This document shows, one piece after another, positions 17,078 to 34,993 of a stretch of DNA of 64,000 nt. The DNA is taken from positions 62,001 to 126,000 of the forward strand of contig JAGYIO010000003.1 in assembly GCA_018402585.1 (NCBI GenBank). Reading direction: 5' to 3'. Below the pieces are notes generated by a model that had not been told where the DNA came from, searched no databases, and saw nothing but the letters and a program-made list of their open reading frames with translations. Position 1 is the first letter of the stretch. Each line of letters starts with the position of its first letter. This DNA is from Chthoniobacterales bacterium. Its GTDB lineage: Bacteria; Verrucomicrobiota; Verrucomicrobiia; Chthoniobacterales; JACTMZ01. The position numbers and the translations under genes were made by a program.

Positions 17078-17158
17078 GCTCGGGTGGTGAAATGGCAGAC
17101 ACGTACGTTTGAGGGGCGTATGCCGTAAGGCATGGGGGTTCAAGTCCCCCCCCGAGCA
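17078..17158 (+). tRNA. tRNA-Leu (anticodon GAG)
   Basis: GCTCGGG...CCCGAGC acceptor stem, TACGT-TTGAGGG-GCGTA anticodon arm, long variable arm, GGTTCAAGTCC T arm; CCA not encoded. Confidence 0.95.
17139..17158 (+). repeat. Direct repeat copy 1 (putative att, tRNA-Leu 3' end)
   Basis: TTCAAGTCCCCCCCCGAGCA, identical to 20286..20305. Confidence 0.9.
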
Positions 17159-26671: not shown

Positions 26672-26841
26672 AACGTTTTCCTGACCGGCCAGTATTGCTT
26701 AAATCATCGCGCTTCGACGGACAAGACTGTCAGCCCCGCGCGCCGCGAAAAAATCCCCGGCCACCGCCCAAAGAGTGCTTTATCGCGGGGGCTCTGCTCA
26801 TTAGGCTCCCGCCCGGGTCGCGGACGACCTTAGAAACGATC

Positions 26842-29800
26842 ATGCCAAAGCCGCCGCAAAAAACCACCGCTCAACCATTCCTCGACGTGGCGGGAAAAAC
26901 CCTGCTCGTGGCCAACCGCAGCGAAATCGCCATCCGTGTTTTCCGGGCCGCCAACGAGTTGCACATGCGGACCATTGCGGTTTACGCGGAGGAGGACCGC
27001 TTCTCCATCCACCGCTTCAAAGCCGACCAAGCCTACGTGGTGGGCCGCGGCAAGGGGCCGGTCGGCGCCTACCTCGACACCGAAAGCATTGTCGGATTGG
27101 CCCGCGACCGTGGGGTCGACATGATCCATCCAGGCTACGGGTTTCTTTCCGAAAACGCCCACTTTGCCCGTGCCTGCGAAAAGGCCGGCATTATCTTTGT
27201 CGGTCCGCGGCCGGAGCTGCTCGATATGATGGGTGACAAAACCGCGGCCCGGGCCCTGGCGATCAAGCTCGGCGTTCCCGTCCTCCCCGGCACGGAAGAA
27301 CCGGTCGACAACCGCGCCGAGGCCATCAAAGTCGCCAAGAAAATCGGTTTCCCGCTCATGATCAAAGCTGCCTTCGGCGGCGGCGGGCGCGGCATGCGCG
27401 TGGTGCGCAAGAAAAATGATCTCGCGGCGCTCCTCGACGAGGCCCGCAACGAAGCCGGACGCGCCTTCGGCAATCCTGCCGTCTTTCTCGAGAAATACAT
27501 CCCGCGGGCCAAGCACATCGAAGTGCAAATCCTCGGTGATGCCCACGGCGGCGTGCTTCACCTGCACGAACGTGACTGCTCGGTGCAGCGACGCCACCAG
27601 AAAGTGGTCGAGGTCGCGCCGTCGATCAATCTGCCGGACGAGGTCCGCGCCGACCTCTGCGACGCGGCGGTCAAAATCGCCCGGGGCATCGGTTACAACA
27701 ACGCAGGCACGGTCGAGTTCCTCTACGACTACGACCGCCACGAGTGGTTCTTCATCGAGATGAACCCGCGCATTCAGGTCGAGCACACCGTGACCGAACA
27801 AATCACCGGTATCGACCTCGTGCGCTCGCAGATTTTGGTTGCAGCAGGCGCGCGCCTGCACGGACCCGAACTCGCCCTGCCCGCGCAGGAAGCCATCCCG
27901 CGCAACGGCTTTGCCGTGCAATGCCGCGTGACCACGGAGGACCCGGCCAATGGTTTCACCCCGAACTACGGGAAGATCGTCACCTACCGCAGTGCCGCCG
28001 GCTTCGGCGTGCGCCTCGACTCGGGCATGGGCACGACCGGCAGCACGATCACGCCGTTCTACGACTCGTTGCTGGTCAAGATCACCACCTCCGGGCAGAC
28101 CTTCCCCGTCGCCCTCGACCGCATGCACCGCGCCCTGCGCGAATTCCGCATCCGCGGCGTGAAGACCAACATGCCTTTCCTCGAGAATGTGGTAACCAAC
28201 CCGGTTTTTCGCTCGGGCCATGCCACCACCACCTTCATCGACAAAACCCCGGCGCTCTTCGAATTCAAACCGCGCCGGGACCGCGCCTCCAAGCTGATGC
28301 AATTCCTCGCCGATGTCTCGATCAACGGAAACACCGAGGCCAAAGGATATCTCCCCACCGGCCGCCTCGCCCCTGCGCCGCTGCCCGGCGTCGACCTGCG
28401 CGTCGACCCGCCGCCCGGCACCCGCCAGCAATTGCTCAAGCTCGGACCCGAAAAGTTTGCCGTGTGGACGCGCAAGCAGAAGCGCGCCCTCTTCACCGAC
28501 ACCACCTTCCGCGACGCCCACCAGTCACTCCTCGCCACACGCGTGCGCACCCATGACATGCTCCTTGTGGCCGACGCCGTGGCCCGCCGCACCCCGCAGC
28601 TCTTCAGCCTCGAGATGTGGGGCGGCGCCACCTTCGACGCCGCCCTGCGCTTCCTGCGCGAAGACCCCTGGGAGCGACTCCGCGCCCTGCGCGAAAAAGT
28701 GCCCAACATCTGCTTCCAGATGCTCTTCCGCGGTTCCAATGCGGTCGGCTACTCGAATTATCCGCCGAAGGTCGTGGCCGGTTTTGTCCGCCACGCGGCG
28801 GAAAGCGGGATGGATATTTTCCGCGTCTTTGATTCGCTCAATGACCTCTCGAATCTGCGCGCGGCGATGGAGGCCGTCCGCCAGACCAGCGCGGTCTGCG
28901 AAGGCACCATTTGTTACACCGGCGACATCCTCGATCCCCGCCGCACCAAGTATGCGCTCAAGTATTACGTGAAGCTGGCCAAGGAACTGGAAAAGATGGG
29001 TGCGCATTTTATCGCCATCAAGGACATGGCCGGCCTCTGCCGCCCGTTCGCGGCCCGCGCCCTGCTCAAAGCCCTCCGGGCCGAAACCGACCTGCCGCTC
29101 CATTTCCACACCCACGACACGAGCGGCGTCAATGCCGCGTCCGTGCTGGCCGCCATCGAATCGGGCGCGGACATCGTCGACTCCGCGATCAGCGCGATGT
29201 CCGGATCGACCTCGCAACCGAATCTCAACAGCCTCGTCGCCGCCCTCCAACACACCCCGCACGACAGCGGTCTCGACCTCGACGCCCTCAACGAGTTCGC
29301 CGACTACTGGGAGCGGGTCCGCACGTTCTACGCCCCTTTCGACACCGCCCCGCGCACCGGCAGTGCCGAAGTCTACCTTCATGAAATGCCCGGCGGACAG
29401 TTCACCAACTTAAAAGAGCAAGCCGCTTCGATGGGCCTCGCCCACCGCTGGCCGGAGATCGCCCGCTGCTACGCCGAGGTCAACCAGCTCTTCGGCGACA
29501 TCGTCAAGGTCACGCCCTCGAGCAAAGTCGTCGGCGACATGGCCCTCTTTCTTTTCACCCGCGGCATCAAACCGGCCGACGTCCCGAACCTCCCTCCCGG
29601 CACACCCTTCCCCGAGTCGGTCAAGGACATGCTAGCCGGCGGACTGGGCGAACCCATCGGGGGATGGCCGAAGGACGTGGTCAAAGCCGTGCTCGGCAAA
29701 ACCAAAGCCAAACCGGCCCGCGCGGCCAAGGTCAGCCTCGAGACGGTGCGCAAGGAGCTGGCCGGCAAACTCAAGCACGCCCCCGACGAGGACGAACTCT

Positions 29801-30318
29801 ACAGCCACCTCATGTATCCGGACGTCTTTGCCACCTTCAACAAATTCGTGCGCGAATATGGAGACGTCAGCGTCCTGCCTACCCCGGCTTTCTTCTACGG
29901 ACTCAAACCCGGCGAGGAGGTCGCGGTTGAAATCGAGCAGGGCAAAACACTCTTCATCAAACTCATCAACATCGGGACAGCCGACAAGGACGGTCACCGC
30001 ATTGTTTTCTTCGAACTCAATGGCATGCCCCGCGAGGTGACGATCACCGACAAGTCACTGCAAACCACGAAGAAAGCCCGCCGCAAAGCCGACGCGTCGA
30101 AACCGCTCGAAATCGGCGCACCCATTCCCGGCATGGTGACCAACCTCGACCACGGCACGGGAGCCAGAGTAGCCAAAGGCGACAAAATCCTCACCATGGA
30201 AGCGATGAAGATGCAGACCACAATCTATGCGCCCTGCGACGGCGCCATCGACGAACTCCTCGTCGCCACCGGCGACGCCGTCGACGCCGGGGATTTACTG
30301 GTCAAGATGCGGGAGTAG
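26842..30318 (+). CDS. pyc: Pyruvate carboxylase (BC, CT and BCCP domains)
   Basis: MPKPPQKTTAQPF...; biotin carboxylase, TFRDAHQSLLATRVRTHDML carboxyltransferase, C-terminal ILTMEAMKMQTTIYAP biotinylation motif. Confidence 0.96.
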   Translation: MPKPPQKTTAQPFLDVAGKTLLVANRSEIAIRVFRAANELHMRTIAVYAEEDRFSIHRFKADQAYVVGRGKGPVGAYLDTESIVGLARDRGVDMIHPGYGFLSENAHFARACEKAGIIFVGPRPELLDMMGDKTAARALAIKLGVPVLPGTEEPVDNRAEAIKVAKKIGFPLMIKAAFGGGGRGMRVVRKKNDLAALLDEARNEAGRAFGNPAVFLEKYIPRAKHIEVQILGDAHGGVLHLHERDCSVQRRHQKVVEVAPSINLPDEVRADLCDAAVKIARGIGYNNAGTVEFLYDYDRHEWFFIEMNPRIQVEHTVTEQITGIDLVRSQILVAAGARLHGPELALPAQEAIPRNGFAVQCRVTTEDPANGFTPNYGKIVTYRSAAGFGVRLDSGMGTTGSTITPFYDSLLVKITTSGQTFPVALDRMHRALREFRIRGVKTNMPFLENVVTNPVFRSGHATTTFIDKTPALFEFKPRRDRASKLMQFLADVSINGNTEAKGYLPTGRLAPAPLPGVDLRVDPPPGTRQQLLKLGPEKFAVWTRKQKRALFTDTTFRDAHQSLLATRVRTHDMLLVADAVARRTPQLFSLEMWGGATFDAALRFLREDPWERLRALREKVPNICFQMLFRGSNAVGYSNYPPKVVAGFVRHAAESGMDIFRVFDSLNDLSNLRAAMEAVRQTSAVCEGTICYTGDILDPRRTKYALKYYVKLAKELEKMGAHFIAIKDMAGLCRPFAARALLKALRAETDLPLHFHTHDTSGVNAASVLAAIESGADIVDSAISAMSGSTSQPNLNSLVAALQHTPHDSGLDLDALNEFADYWERVRTFYAPFDTAPRTGSAEVYLHEMPGGQFTNLKEQAASMGLAHRWPEIARCYAEVNQLFGDIVKVTPSSKVVGDMALFLFTRGIKPADVPNLPPGTPFPESVKDMLAGGLGEPIGGWPKDVVKAVLGKTKAKPARAAKVSLETVRKELAGKLKHAPDEDELYSHLMYPDVFATFNKFVREYGDVSVLPTPAFFYGLKPGEEVAVEIEQGKTLFIKLINIGTADKDGHRIVFFELNGMPREVTITDKSLQTTKKARRKADASKPLEIGAPIPGMVTNLDHGTGARVAKGDKILTMEAMKMQTTIYAPCDGAIDELLVATGDAVDAGDLLVKMRE

Positions 30319-30321
30319 CAA
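30043..30321 (+). repeat. 279-bp direct repeat copy 1 (pyc 3' end)
   Basis: Matches 34080..34358 with two substitutions (30291, 30310); offset 4037 bp. Confidence 0.97.
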
Positions 30322-30413
30322 AGACCTCTTTCTCCGAGAACCGCACCAACTCGCCAACTTTCGATGTGGCGTCGGGAGCAGCCCAAGAAATCTGCCAATT
30401 CCTGCGTGGTCAT
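30322..30413 (-). pseudogene. Excisionase-like HTH fragment
   Basis: Reverse frame reads ...KRVLMTTQELADFLGCSRRHIESW then diverges into sequence at the pyc repeat boundary; resembles the MerR/excisionase-type HTH N-terminus. Confidence 0.5.
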
Positions 30414-30889
30414 CAGCACCCGTTTTTCGGGAGCATCCTGTCGTGTGTGTTCGTGTGTCTTCACACCGTGCCGCACGGTGTCAACGTGCTGACGCGTCAT
30501 GTCACCGCCTGTCGCAGTTCGTGAGTGGAAAACCACGTTTTCCACCTCGTCCAAGCCTCCCTTAAGCAGTTCCTATTTGGAGCGTAGGAGCCTCGTTATC
30601 AGCGTGTTGCTACTGCGCGGTATGGGTGGGTTGCCGGAGCAAAAAAGTGTAAAGCTGAAAAACGTTTCCTCATGGGATTTTATTGGGGAACTCCCTCCCC
30701 TTGGACGTGAACGACTTACATAAAAGATTGCTTATATTGTGCGGTCTTATCCGCGATATTACAAATCACCAAACACGCTCCTAATGGACGACACCAAAAA
30801 TAATCAAAAAACTCCCTTGACTTTCATCGCATCTCAAATATGATAATTCAATTAAGCGTCGCGATTTTATTAAACTGACCTCCGCCGCC

Positions 30890-32728
30890 GTGGTAGGCTC
30901 GCAGTGTTTGGGTTTGATCCGTCTTGTCGCGGCGGCGGGCGAAGCCCAGTTTCGCAAAAACATACTGATCATCATCACCGATCAGGAACGTCCGCCTATG
31001 TGGTTTCCCGACGGGTGGGAAAACAGCAACCTTCCTTCCACCGTCCGGCTCAAGGGCAAAGGGTTGACTTTTAACAGCGCCTTCGCCTGCACGGCGATGT
31101 GTTCCGCGTCGAGGAACTCCCTTTTTACTGGCCTTTTTCCCGCGCAACATCTGTCCACCGATACGCTCACGCAGTATTCGTCTCAGGAACAAATTCGACA
31201 CCAACTCGACCCCACCCTGCCCAATCTGGCCACCTGCCTGAAGGAAGCCGGATACGATGTGATTTATAAAGGGAAATGGCATATGAGCTCCGGGGTGGAA
31301 AGCGCCGATGGAACCGCGATTCCAGACGATATTTCCCGATACGGTTTCGACGGCTGGGACGCGCCCGATGCCGGGGCAGACATCCAACCCTCGACCTTTG
31401 GCGGTGGAAAAGCCGATCACGACCAGCGTTTTGTCAATGACTCCATCTCATTCTTGAATGACCGCCTGGCAAATCCTTCCAGCAAGCCGTTCTGTCTGGT
31501 GGTGTCTCTGGTGAATCCGCACGATGTCCTTGCATATCCGACGAGCTACGATGACATCGGCGATTATCCCGACGATCCCTGGCTGAACCCGACCGTACCA
31601 CCGATTTCCATCCCTTCGACGGCAAACGAAAACTTGCAGCTCAACAAAAAGCCCACCGCGCAAACGGGTGTGCTGCGGGTGATCCAGGCGGGGCTTGGAC
31701 CGCTGGACACACCCCAAAAAAAACTGAACTACCTGAATTTCTACGGTAACCTGATGAAAAAGGTGGACGGGCAGATCGGACAGTTGCTCGGAGTTTTTGA
31801 TGCGGCCGGGGGCGAGAACATGCTTAAGAACACCTTGATTATCCGCACGTCGGACCATGGCGAAATGGGGCTGAGTCATGGCTTGAGGCAAAAAACTTTT
31901 GTTTCCTACGAAGAAACCATCCGGGTGCCGCTCATCTGGTCCAACCCGGAGATGTTTCCCTCACCACGCACTTCGAACGCCATGGTCTCACATGTCGATC
32001 TGCTGCCGACACTCTGTTCGCTCACGGGCGTTCCGAACTGGCAGTCGAAAGGGTTCAAGGGCGTCGATTACAGCTCCTTGATTTGGGATCCCGAAGCGCT
32101 TCCGGTTCAGAACCATGTCCTGTTCACCTTCGATGACATTTACGCCGGCGCGGATATGACGCGGTTTCCAAACGGGGTGGCGAATCCGCCGAACCGAATC
32201 CAGATGATCCGCAGTTCTGAGTTTAAATACGCGCGCTATTATGACCTCGCCGGGGTGCAACCAGATCAGGGCGAATTCTACGATCTCCGTCCCGATGGGG
32301 GAGACTATGACCCGGCTTTTAAACAGCCGCTTGAGATGAATAATCTTTCGGAATGGGCTGCGGCAAATTTCCCAAACCCACCGCTGCTTACGGCTGAACA
32401 GACTGCCGCCCGAACCCAACTGTCGAGCGACCTGGCCGCCGCGGTGGCAACCCGGCTTCAACCCCGTCCCAAAAACGCTCCCCATGGCCCGGACGATCTG
32501 AAAATCGAAGTGGTCCGCTGGACCGATGACTCCGGTCCGCACGCCCAGGTCCAGATCACCTTCCTCTCGCGTTATGGAGAAACGTATCAGATTCAGCAAT
32601 CGCCAGATCTCCTCACATGGGCGAACTTTAGCGACCCGATTCCCGGAAACAACGGACCGGTTTTGCGGCATTACGACATCCTGCTGCCTAAAGCCTTTTA
32701 CCGGCTTCAATGGACCGGCCCGGCATGA
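30890..32728 (+). CDS. Sulfatase, Cys-type (formylglycine-dependent)
   Basis: NILIIITDQERPP, AFACTAMCSASRNSLFTG (C-x-A-x-R at 31100..31114), YKGKWHMS, SDHGEMGLSHGL; upstream same-frame Tat-like signal NSIKRRDFIKLTSAAVVGS. Confidence 0.92.
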   Translation: MVGSQCLGLIRLVAAAGEAQFRKNILIIITDQERPPMWFPDGWENSNLPSTVRLKGKGLTFNSAFACTAMCSASRNSLFTGLFPAQHLSTDTLTQYSSQEQIRHQLDPTLPNLATCLKEAGYDVIYKGKWHMSSGVESADGTAIPDDISRYGFDGWDAPDAGADIQPSTFGGGKADHDQRFVNDSISFLNDRLANPSSKPFCLVVSLVNPHDVLAYPTSYDDIGDYPDDPWLNPTVPPISIPSTANENLQLNKKPTAQTGVLRVIQAGLGPLDTPQKKLNYLNFYGNLMKKVDGQIGQLLGVFDAAGGENMLKNTLIIRTSDHGEMGLSHGLRQKTFVSYEETIRVPLIWSNPEMFPSPRTSNAMVSHVDLLPTLCSLTGVPNWQSKGFKGVDYSSLIWDPEALPVQNHVLFTFDDIYAGADMTRFPNGVANPPNRIQMIRSSEFKYARYYDLAGVQPDQGEFYDLRPDGGDYDPAFKQPLEMNNLSEWAAANFPNPPLLTAEQTAARTQLSSDLAAAVATRLQPRPKNAPHGPDDLKIEVVRWTDDSGPHAQVQITFLSRYGETYQIQQSPDLLTWANFSDPIPGNNGPVLRHYDILLPKAFYRLQWTGPA

Positions 32729-33945
32729 GGTCGGGCCCCGATAATTTTCATGTGATGGCCAAACCTTCCGGCGCCATCTGCAACCTCAACTGCACTTATT
32801 GTTTTTACCTGGAGAAGGAAGCCCTTTTCGACCGCGAATCGAGTTTCCGGATGAGCGATGACGTGCTCGAAGCCTATGTGAGGCAACAGATCGATTCGCA
32901 ACAGGGTTCAGAAGTGCTTTTTGCCTGGCAGGGAGGCGAGCCTACGTTGATGGGATTGGATTTTTTCCAAAAAGCAGTCGCACTCCAGCGAAAACACGCG
33001 GGCGGAAGGACGATCAGAAACGCGTTTCAAACGAACGGCGTTTTGCTCGATGACTGCTGGTGCGAATTCCTGCGGGCCAATGACTTTCTGGTGGGCCTGA
33101 GCATCGACGGTCCGGAGGCGCTTCACGACCTATACCGGGTTGACAAAGGGGGCAAACCGACATTTGCAAAGGTTTTTCGAGGACTGGAGTTTTTAAAAAA
33201 ACACGGGGTTGAATTCAACACGTTGACAGTTGTTCACGAAGGAAATTCGCGTCATCCCCTGGAGGTTTACGAGTTCTTAAAAAGTTCAGGATCGCGCTAC
33301 CTGCAATTCATCCCCCTGGTGGAACCACAGCGGAATCCTTCAAACGATGGCACGGCGGATTCCGTGGTGACCGATGCCAGTGTGCGGGCGGAGGATTACG
33401 GCAATTTTCTTATCTCCGTCTTTGAACATTGGGTTCGAAACGACGTGGGAAAAGTATTCGTTCAAATATTTGACGTGGCGTTGGGGATTTGGATGGGACA
33501 TCCCTCAACCCTCTGTCTTTTCAAAGAAACATGCGGGGATGCCGTGGCTTTGGAGCACAATGGCGACCTCTTTTCCTGCGATCATTTTGTTTATCCCCGA
33601 AACCGGCTGGGAAACATCCTGACCCAAAACCTCGGCGACATGGTCCGTTCCCCGCAACAGCGAACTTTTGGAACCGAAAAACAATCGAGCCTGCCTCAGT
33701 TTTGCCTGGATTGTGACGTCCGTTTTGCTTGCAACGGCGAATGCCCCAAAAACCGCTTGCTCCGAACACCAGACGGGCAGCCAGGACTCAACTATTTATG
33801 TGCGGGTTATAAAAACTTTTTTCACCACGTGAATCCCGCCATGAGAGGGATGGCATGGCTGGCGCTTTCTGGCCGGTCCCCGGCTGAAATAATAAATTTT
33901 TTATCTGGAAATTTCATCTCGCAAAACGCCGGCACCTGTTCCTGA
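32725..33945 (+). CDS. Anaerobic sulfatase-maturating enzyme (radical SAM, SPASM)
   Basis: AKPSGAICNLNCTYCFYLEK (CxxxCxxC), AWQGGEPTLMGLDFF, C-terminal Cys cluster FCLDCDVRFACNGECPKNR; ATGA overlap with sulfatase. Confidence 0.95.
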   Translation: MRSGPDNFHVMAKPSGAICNLNCTYCFYLEKEALFDRESSFRMSDDVLEAYVRQQIDSQQGSEVLFAWQGGEPTLMGLDFFQKAVALQRKHAGGRTIRNAFQTNGVLLDDCWCEFLRANDFLVGLSIDGPEALHDLYRVDKGGKPTFAKVFRGLEFLKKHGVEFNTLTVVHEGNSRHPLEVYEFLKSSGSRYLQFIPLVEPQRNPSNDGTADSVVTDASVRAEDYGNFLISVFEHWVRNDVGKVFVQIFDVALGIWMGHPSTLCLFKETCGDAVALEHNGDLFSCDHFVYPRNRLGNILTQNLGDMVRSPQQRTFGTEKQSSLPQFCLDCDVRFACNGECPKNRLLRTPDGQPGLNYLCAGYKNFFHHVNPAMRGMAWLALSGRSPAEIINFLSGNFISQNAGTCS

Positions 33946-34079
33946 TTCTTCAGATTGTGGCCCTGCCGACTAGGGTGTGCGCCCAAATTGGAGGCAGACC
34001 CCCTCACTCCCAGACGCCCACCCCCCTTTCTGACCGTCCCCGGTGCAGCGGGCGTGAAAGCAAATTCCTAGCAGTCACC

Positions 34080-34358
34080 ATCACCGACAAGTCACTGCAA
34101 ACCACGAAGAAAGCCCGCCGCAAAGCCGACGCGTCGAAACCGCTCGAAATCGGCGCACCCATTCCCGGCATGGTGACCAACCTCGACCACGGCACGGGAG
34201 CCAGAGTAGCCAAAGGCGACAAAATCCTCACCATGGAAGCGATGAAGATGCAGACCACAATCTATGCGCCCTGCGACGGCGCCATCGACGAACTCCTCGT
34301 CGCCACCGGCGACGCCGTCGACGCCGGAGATTTACTGGTCAAGATGAGGGAGTAGCAA
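34080..34358 (+). repeat. 279-bp direct repeat copy 2 (detached pyc BCCP end)
   Basis: Encodes ITDKSLQTTKKARRKADASKPLEIGAPIPGMVTNLDHGTGARVAKGDKILTMEAMKMQTTIYAPCDGAIDELLVATGDAVDAGDLLVKMRE, identical protein to pyc C-terminus. Confidence 0.97.
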
Positions 34359-34405: not shown

Positions 34406-34993
34406 TCAAGCCGCCTTTCCGATCTCCGTCGCTTCCGTGATCTCCTCGAGCTTCCCGGTCCGCACGTCGTAAAGATACCCGTAAACCGGGATGGATTTCG
34501 GCACGAGCGGATGGTTGCGCACCTTTTTCACGTCATCGATCACCGCCTGGCGGTCGTCGGTGAAGGTCAACCAATCGATCTTCGCCCCCTCCGGCGAACC
34601 CGGCCCCTGACCCACATCGCGCCAGCCGTTTTCGTCGACCACCGCTTGCTCGAGACTTTTGGAGAGCAGGTCAGCCATGACCTCGCTGTTGAACAGCACC
34701 ATGCCGCAATCGGTGTGGTGGATGACGAAAAATTCTTTGGTCCCGAGCAATTTGTAGGAAATGACCAGCGAGCGGATGGCATCGTCACTCGCCCGGCCGC
34801 CGGCATTGCGGATGACGTGGGCGTCTCCCTCGGACAAGCCGGCCAGCTTGGCCGGATCAACCCGCGCGTCCATGCAGGTCAGCACGGCAAAACGCCCCCC
34901 CGGGGGCAGCGGAAGTTTTCCCCTCTCGCCGAACTGGGCGACGTATTCGGCATTGGCTTTCTCGACGCTCTGGACCACGGGTGACTTTTGCAT
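34406..34993 (-). CDS. Beta-class carbonic anhydrase
   Basis: [53 protein letters not shown]. Confidence 0.95.

Follow-up and report, generated by a model that had tools for sequence, protein, structure and literature searches.

A foreign sulfatase–maturase operon inserted beside an intact pyruvate carboxylase gene in a Chthoniobacterales genome, best explained by homologous recombination

Introduction

The closest described counterparts of the locus analysed here come from Escherichia coli, in which the icd gene is the insertion site of phage 21 and likewise of the prophage e14. Insertion of e14 has duplicated 165 bp of the icd gene end with 12 exchanges, such that an intact gene lies to one side and the displaced 3' end to the other, with the reading frame kept (PMC11148124). 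Integration of a recircularised fragment by a single crossover (a ‘Campbell’ insertion) has a similar outcome: at lacZ of E. coli, a gene-end duplication was detected by PCR in 56 of 60 clones, and in the 14 clones that were sequenced the duplications spanned 109-950 bp (PMC3240628). A third route, homology-facilitated illegitimate recombination, is known from S. pneumoniae, A. baylyi and P. stutzeri, and usually yields a deletion together with a joint of 3-10 bp microhomology (PMC3240628).

Here, we analyse a 64-kb stretch of DNA (‘the window’) in which 3.7-kb of foreign sequence separates pyc, encoding pyruvate carboxylase, from a carbonic anhydrase gene, within a repeat unit of 4037 bp that is bounded by direct copies of the pyc 3' end. 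As with e14 at icd, a housekeeping gene has taken up DNA at its 3' end, with a displaced gene end lying on the far side and the reading frame kept; e14, however, carries an integrase and its two copies are divergent, whereas the unit described here has no recombinase and its copies share an identical centre of 248 bp. The lacZ integrants also have foreign DNA held between direct, partial duplications of a gene end, for which RecA-type recombination suffices, but these were laboratory plasmids with identical alleles, whereas this is a natural case with a donor allele that seems to be divergent. Anchoring of foreign DNA by a single stretch of homology is common to this locus and to homology-facilitated illegitimate recombination, but here we see a duplication and no visible deletion.

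Results

Coordinates for the features of the locus are collected in Table 1. An earlier note had reported that the pyc end at 30043-30321 recurs at 34080-34358, with an offset of 4037 bp and only two substitutions, and self-comparison of the window gives the same result; the mismatches, at 30291 (G/A) and 30310 (C/A), are both synonymous. The make-up of the repeat needs a small correction, as its coding part amounts to 273 bases (91 codons) and not 276, although the TAG and the three further nucleotides (CAA) stand as described. These 91 codons are the last of the pyc frame, which encodes 1207 amino acids and whose true start may be internal. Searching the genome with the repeat returned two places only, both within one 392-kb contig, the second copy having E = 1.7e-141, which is far beyond chance; the sole further repeat in the window is one of 132 bp at 71%.

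Table 1. Features of the pyc-carbonic anhydrase region, in window coordinates
Feature	Position	Strand	Basis
pyc, pyruvate carboxylase, full length and open	26695..30318	+	NCBIfam PRK12999.1 and TIGR01235, above cut-off; ORF list
Left repeat copy (pyc 3' end, TAG, CAA)	30043..30321	+	Window self-match
HTH_17 (excisionase-like) gene remnant	30322..30430	-	Pfam HTH_17, 19.9 bits, under the 27-bit cut-off; three-frame reading
Conserved ~175-bp terminus of a Verrucomicrobiota mobile-element family, outer end at right	30563..30735	+	89% copy, nhmmer, alignment
Cys-type sulfatase	30859..32728	+	Pfam Sulfatase, 1.3e-43
anSME, anaerobic sulfatase maturase (radical SAM/SPASM)	32710..33945	+	TIGR03942, 509 bits, above cut-off
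Right spacer, without match among the sequences compared	33946..34072		Sequence comparison
Right repeat copy, headless pyc end, probably from AGTCACC at 34073	34073..34358	+	Copy alignment and congeners
Carbonic anhydrase, native convergent neighbour of pyc	34406..34993	-	Pfam Pro_CA; adjoins pyc in four congeners

Homology between the copies probably reaches slightly past 30043-30321 at both sides. The right copy seems to begin with AGTCACC, a sequence found in the pyc of five congeners, where the intact gene of the window reads GGTGACG at the equivalent position; at the 3' side, weak similarity continues to 30326/34363. Aligned across 30036-30326 (291 bases), the copies differ at seven sites (30036, 30039, 30042, 30291, 30310, 30322 and 30324), leaving 248 bp in the centre that are identical. 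Selective constraint does not account for this clean middle, since 23-34 of the same 248 sites are different in the five congeners tested. Were the differences randomly placed, a clean run of this length would arise with P of about 5e-6 (seven sites, in an alignment extended after the congeners had been seen), with P = 7e-4 if only the four sites in 30039-30318 are used, and with P = 0.03 for the strict repeat alone; the argument from the 5' edge concerns 7 bases, included after the congeners were viewed. The base shared by all congeners at 30310 is present in the left copy but not in the right, and the left copy matches congeners G002 and G001 at 30291; across these few sites, the 5' edge has its congener-like bases in the right copy, and the 3' edge has them mostly in the left. 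The best account of such edge-only differences would be that homologous recombination joined, or homogenised, two pyc alleles that had diverged. The middle may also have been cleaned by subsequent gene conversion between the copies, a process that could yield this pattern after any type of insertion, one mediated by an integrase included.

The headless pyc end lies within an open frame of 132 amino acids (33957-34355) that preserves the biotin-carrier domain with its EAMKM motif; if translated, its product could be biotinylated.

To check its proposal, the earlier note had suggested looking for relatives with an uninterrupted junction between pyc and carbonic anhydrase, and for further duplications of the pyc end. 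Such junctions are present in four congeners (G002, G007, G001 and G004; loci L004, L005, L006 and L008), in which pyc runs directly towards the convergent carbonic anhydrase gene across a short intergenic stretch that holds no second pyc end; the 4037-bp unit is therefore an insertion, and no host sequence between the two genes is visibly missing by comparison with these congeners. A carbonic anhydrase gene adjoining pyc was not found in the other congeners, a different gene coming next in L028, and, on the genomes compared, the neighbourhood is a trait of only part of the genus. Further duplications were not forthcoming: with the repeated 91 residues as query, and a match taken at E <= 1e-15, 57 of the 213 genomes of the order that were searched gave a match, but only the present one did so twice. 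The titles and abstracts retrieved in a literature search on pyc as an integration site describe no such site. A tRNA landing site is rejected, as the sole tRNA gene in the window lies at 17078.

The cargo had been described as an HTH fragment, an AT-richer stretch, a sulfatase and its radical-SAM maturase, all of foreign appearance. Pfam, TIGR03942 and GC content bear out this description, and base composition and the distance of the sulfatase relatives confirm the foreign look. GC content is about 58-66% in the flanks and 48-58% in the cargo, with the AT-richer stretch at 48%, and GC3 is 0.66 and 0.58 for the two cargo genes, as against 0.76-0.81 in neighbouring genes. The closest sulfatase relatives (54-57% identical) belong to other families of the order and class, with weak relatives only inside the genus. 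Judged on these features, the cargo is foreign. A search of plasmids gave sulfatase matches of just 29-31% identity. A Cys-type motif, MCSASR, can be read in the sulfatase sequence, which accords with a maturase of the anSME kind, and the two genes overlap by 19 bp. Two of the genomes with these close relatives, both from another family of the class (L103 and L104), have the sulfatase followed by the same maturase, with similarly close spacing, at 55% and 66-67% identity; because these loci keep the gene order, we suggest that the operon travels as a pair. Unlike those pairs, the one here adjoins pyc and has a sulfatase start that looks damaged. At 30830-30900, an in-frame Tat-like signal (KRRDFIKLTSAAVVG) precedes the first common start codon (GTG at 30890); the signal has a stop just upstream and no common start codon of its own, and an ATG close by is one base out of frame. 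Homologues begin normally, with the Tat signal in frame. The start thus looks lost or shifted, and either the gene may be damaged at this point or the assembly may have a base error.

The leftmost 400 bp of the cargo come from a mobile element, of which only an HTH remnant and one terminus remain (30322-30735). The HTH_17 remnant stands tail to tail with pyc and is apparently frameshifted or internally deleted, and the remainder of its element is absent on the pyc side. The terminus (30563-30734) matches a second place in the same genome at 89% (G000:C1:383133-383302, equal to L057:9133-9302), beside which an HTH gene in the equivalent place and strand matches PHROG 66, excisionase. Related termini were recovered from further Verrucomicrobiota genomes, spanning several genera, and from a single IMG/VR contig (loci L073, L074, L075, L076, L077, L079, L080, L097 and L102). 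In an alignment of 16 ends, supplemented by nhmmer, conservation stops near TAATAGATTTCCT, with right flanks that are unrelated in most loci, save that in one family similarity continues for about 40 bp beyond; to the left of the copies are HTH genes and endonuclease-like frames and, at some loci, primase/helicase and exonuclease genes. In the window, the outer end of the terminus, at about 30735, faces the sulfatase, and pyc is therefore not the attachment site of that end. We infer that, in a donor, an element of this type had its end upstream of the sulfatase operon, and that it is cut by the joint with pyc.

This terminus group is possibly an undescribed family of elements. Among 388 genomes of the phylum the exact terminus pattern is confined to this genome, and a looser pattern recovers 11 stretches in Verrucomicrobia metagenome-assembled genomes plus one IMG/VR contig. 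Inverted terminus copies at both ends of a single element were not found in the sequence compared, nor was an integrase in the 23 kb of the IMG/VR contig that carries the terminus. The 175-bp stretch shows no sign of a structured RNA (fold z-score 0.03, and no meaningful match in Rfam). It holds repeated TGTAAAG(C/T)TG words, which look like putative arm sites for a recombinase. Beyond the terminus at the second copy (L057:9133-13543, G000:C1) come what by eye is an AbiE-like toxin-antitoxin pair and, 3 kb further on, another sulfatase-maturase gene, with about 68% DNA identity to that of the window; in the viral contig (L102:9257-12334), several defence-like genes (HNH and others, again by eye) lie to the right of the terminus.

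Discussion

Synthesis of these observations leads us to a model, which we hold to be somewhat more probable than the opposite, in which RecA-type single-crossover (Campbell) recombination captured a fragment bearing the pyc end of a relative. A fragment that combined part of a related pyc 3' end, the broken end of a mobile element and the sulfatase-maturase operon would have entered the cell, circularised (or arrived as a circle) and undergone one crossover within the shared pyc end. Had the donor allele diverged from the resident one, this exchange would leave copies that are reciprocal hybrids, the product being an intact, hybrid pyc at left, the cargo, a headless pyc end at right, and then the native carbonic anhydrase gene. 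The donor, the circle and the order of events are our reconstruction; no donor or free circle was found, and an exact search of IMG/VR with the left joint (26 bp) returned nothing. The insert would now be immobile, except that the two copies could recombine, which would delete it and restore pyc.

We favour Campbell capture because four congeners retain the empty site and the insert is flanked by direct copies of the pyc end; because differences between the copies are confined to the edges of a 248-bp identical run; because neither the 4037-bp unit (ORF list, Pfam) nor its surroundings contain a recombinase, the five integrase matches of the genome all lying elsewhere; and because crossovers of recircularised fragments in E. 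coli gave the same anatomy (PMC3240628). Evidence of cross-species homologous exchange close by also argues for it. Some 3 kb upstream of the repeat, the segment 25000-27000 (purK-purE and the start of pyc) has 96-97% identity to G002 with sharp edges, as against 75-87% just upstream and 85-93% just downstream, and only 72-80% in other congeners, and so looks like a recent cross-species recombination tract. The genome has a ComEC homologue, the presence of which alone does not amount to competence.

The earlier note had left the mechanism between an element entering the pyc 3' end and a Campbell-type insertion. Insertion beside an intact pyc holds, and the Campbell form fits better. For the element, the pyc 3' end would have served a tyrosine recombinase as attB, the incoming DNA would have supplied a new gene end, and the recombinase would since have been lost. 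The duplicated gene end and restored reading frame do have the anatomy of e14 at icd, with an intact gene at one side and the displaced 3' end at the other (PMC11148124), the cargo is foreign, and the excisionase-like HTH remnant directly adjoins the left copy. We nonetheless regard an integrative-element remnant as unlikely, given 4037 bp without a recombinase, a pyc end that is not a recurrent landing site among the 57 matching genomes of the order, a terminus whose outer end is directed towards the sulfatase, and copies that are identical over 248 bp where e14 and icd show 12 differences in 165 bp. The core used by integrases is usually far shorter than a repeat of the 279-bp kind. A more specific proposal, that an undescribed integrative element attaches at the pyc 3' end and is represented here by a cargo-bearing remnant without a recombinase, possibly moved by a recombinase from elsewhere, is in our view distinctly improbable.

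Linear DNA might instead have joined by homology at one end and by an end-to-end joint at the other (homology-facilitated illegitimate recombination), with the right joint inside pyc, which differs from the Campbell form solely in that no circle is required. The presence of one long homologous stretch and one abrupt joint would suit such an event, as would ComEC, but reported products usually have a deletion with short microhomology (PMC3240628), whereas here there is a duplication and no visible loss relative to the congeners, and we consider this route very doubtful. There is but a slim chance that the pyc end was copied, and foreign DNA caught, in a local event, namely a break with staggered ends or a template switch. 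Copies made in this way would at first be identical, which suits their high identity but not differences restricted to the edges, nor the congener-type bases of the right copy; moreover, no Ku homologue was found in the genome, which is incomplete.

Slimmer still is the chance of an assembly artefact, in which the pyc loci of two strains were joined in one contig of a metagenome-derived genome. The assembly is a draft (35 contigs, 89.6% complete) and the copies carry different edge alleles, as that would predict, but both copies lie well inside the 392-kb contig, and a collapsed repeat would still need the same two joints, whether inserted or as a free circle; slippage is unlikely because the right joint, from cargo to pyc, offers the assembler no long shared sequence. 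Transposition does not fit, as transposons are marked by a transposase, terminal inverted repeats and a target duplication that is usually of 2-14 bp, and here the repeat is of 279-bp, no transposase is found among the ORFs and the ends have no inverted repeat.

We conclude that foreign sulfatase genes have indeed been inserted next to an intact pyc, that homologous recombination is the best explanation, and that the locus clearly exemplifies an already known type of event rather than a new element. If an integrase were to be found for the insert, pyc would be an unusual landing site; as it stands, the locus illustrates that the presence of foreign cargo within a long gene-end repeat does not by itself imply an integrative element. 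It provides a natural ‘snapshot’ of a Verrucomicrobiota lineage gaining genes for the attack of sulfated compounds, whilst leaving a central metabolic gene undamaged.
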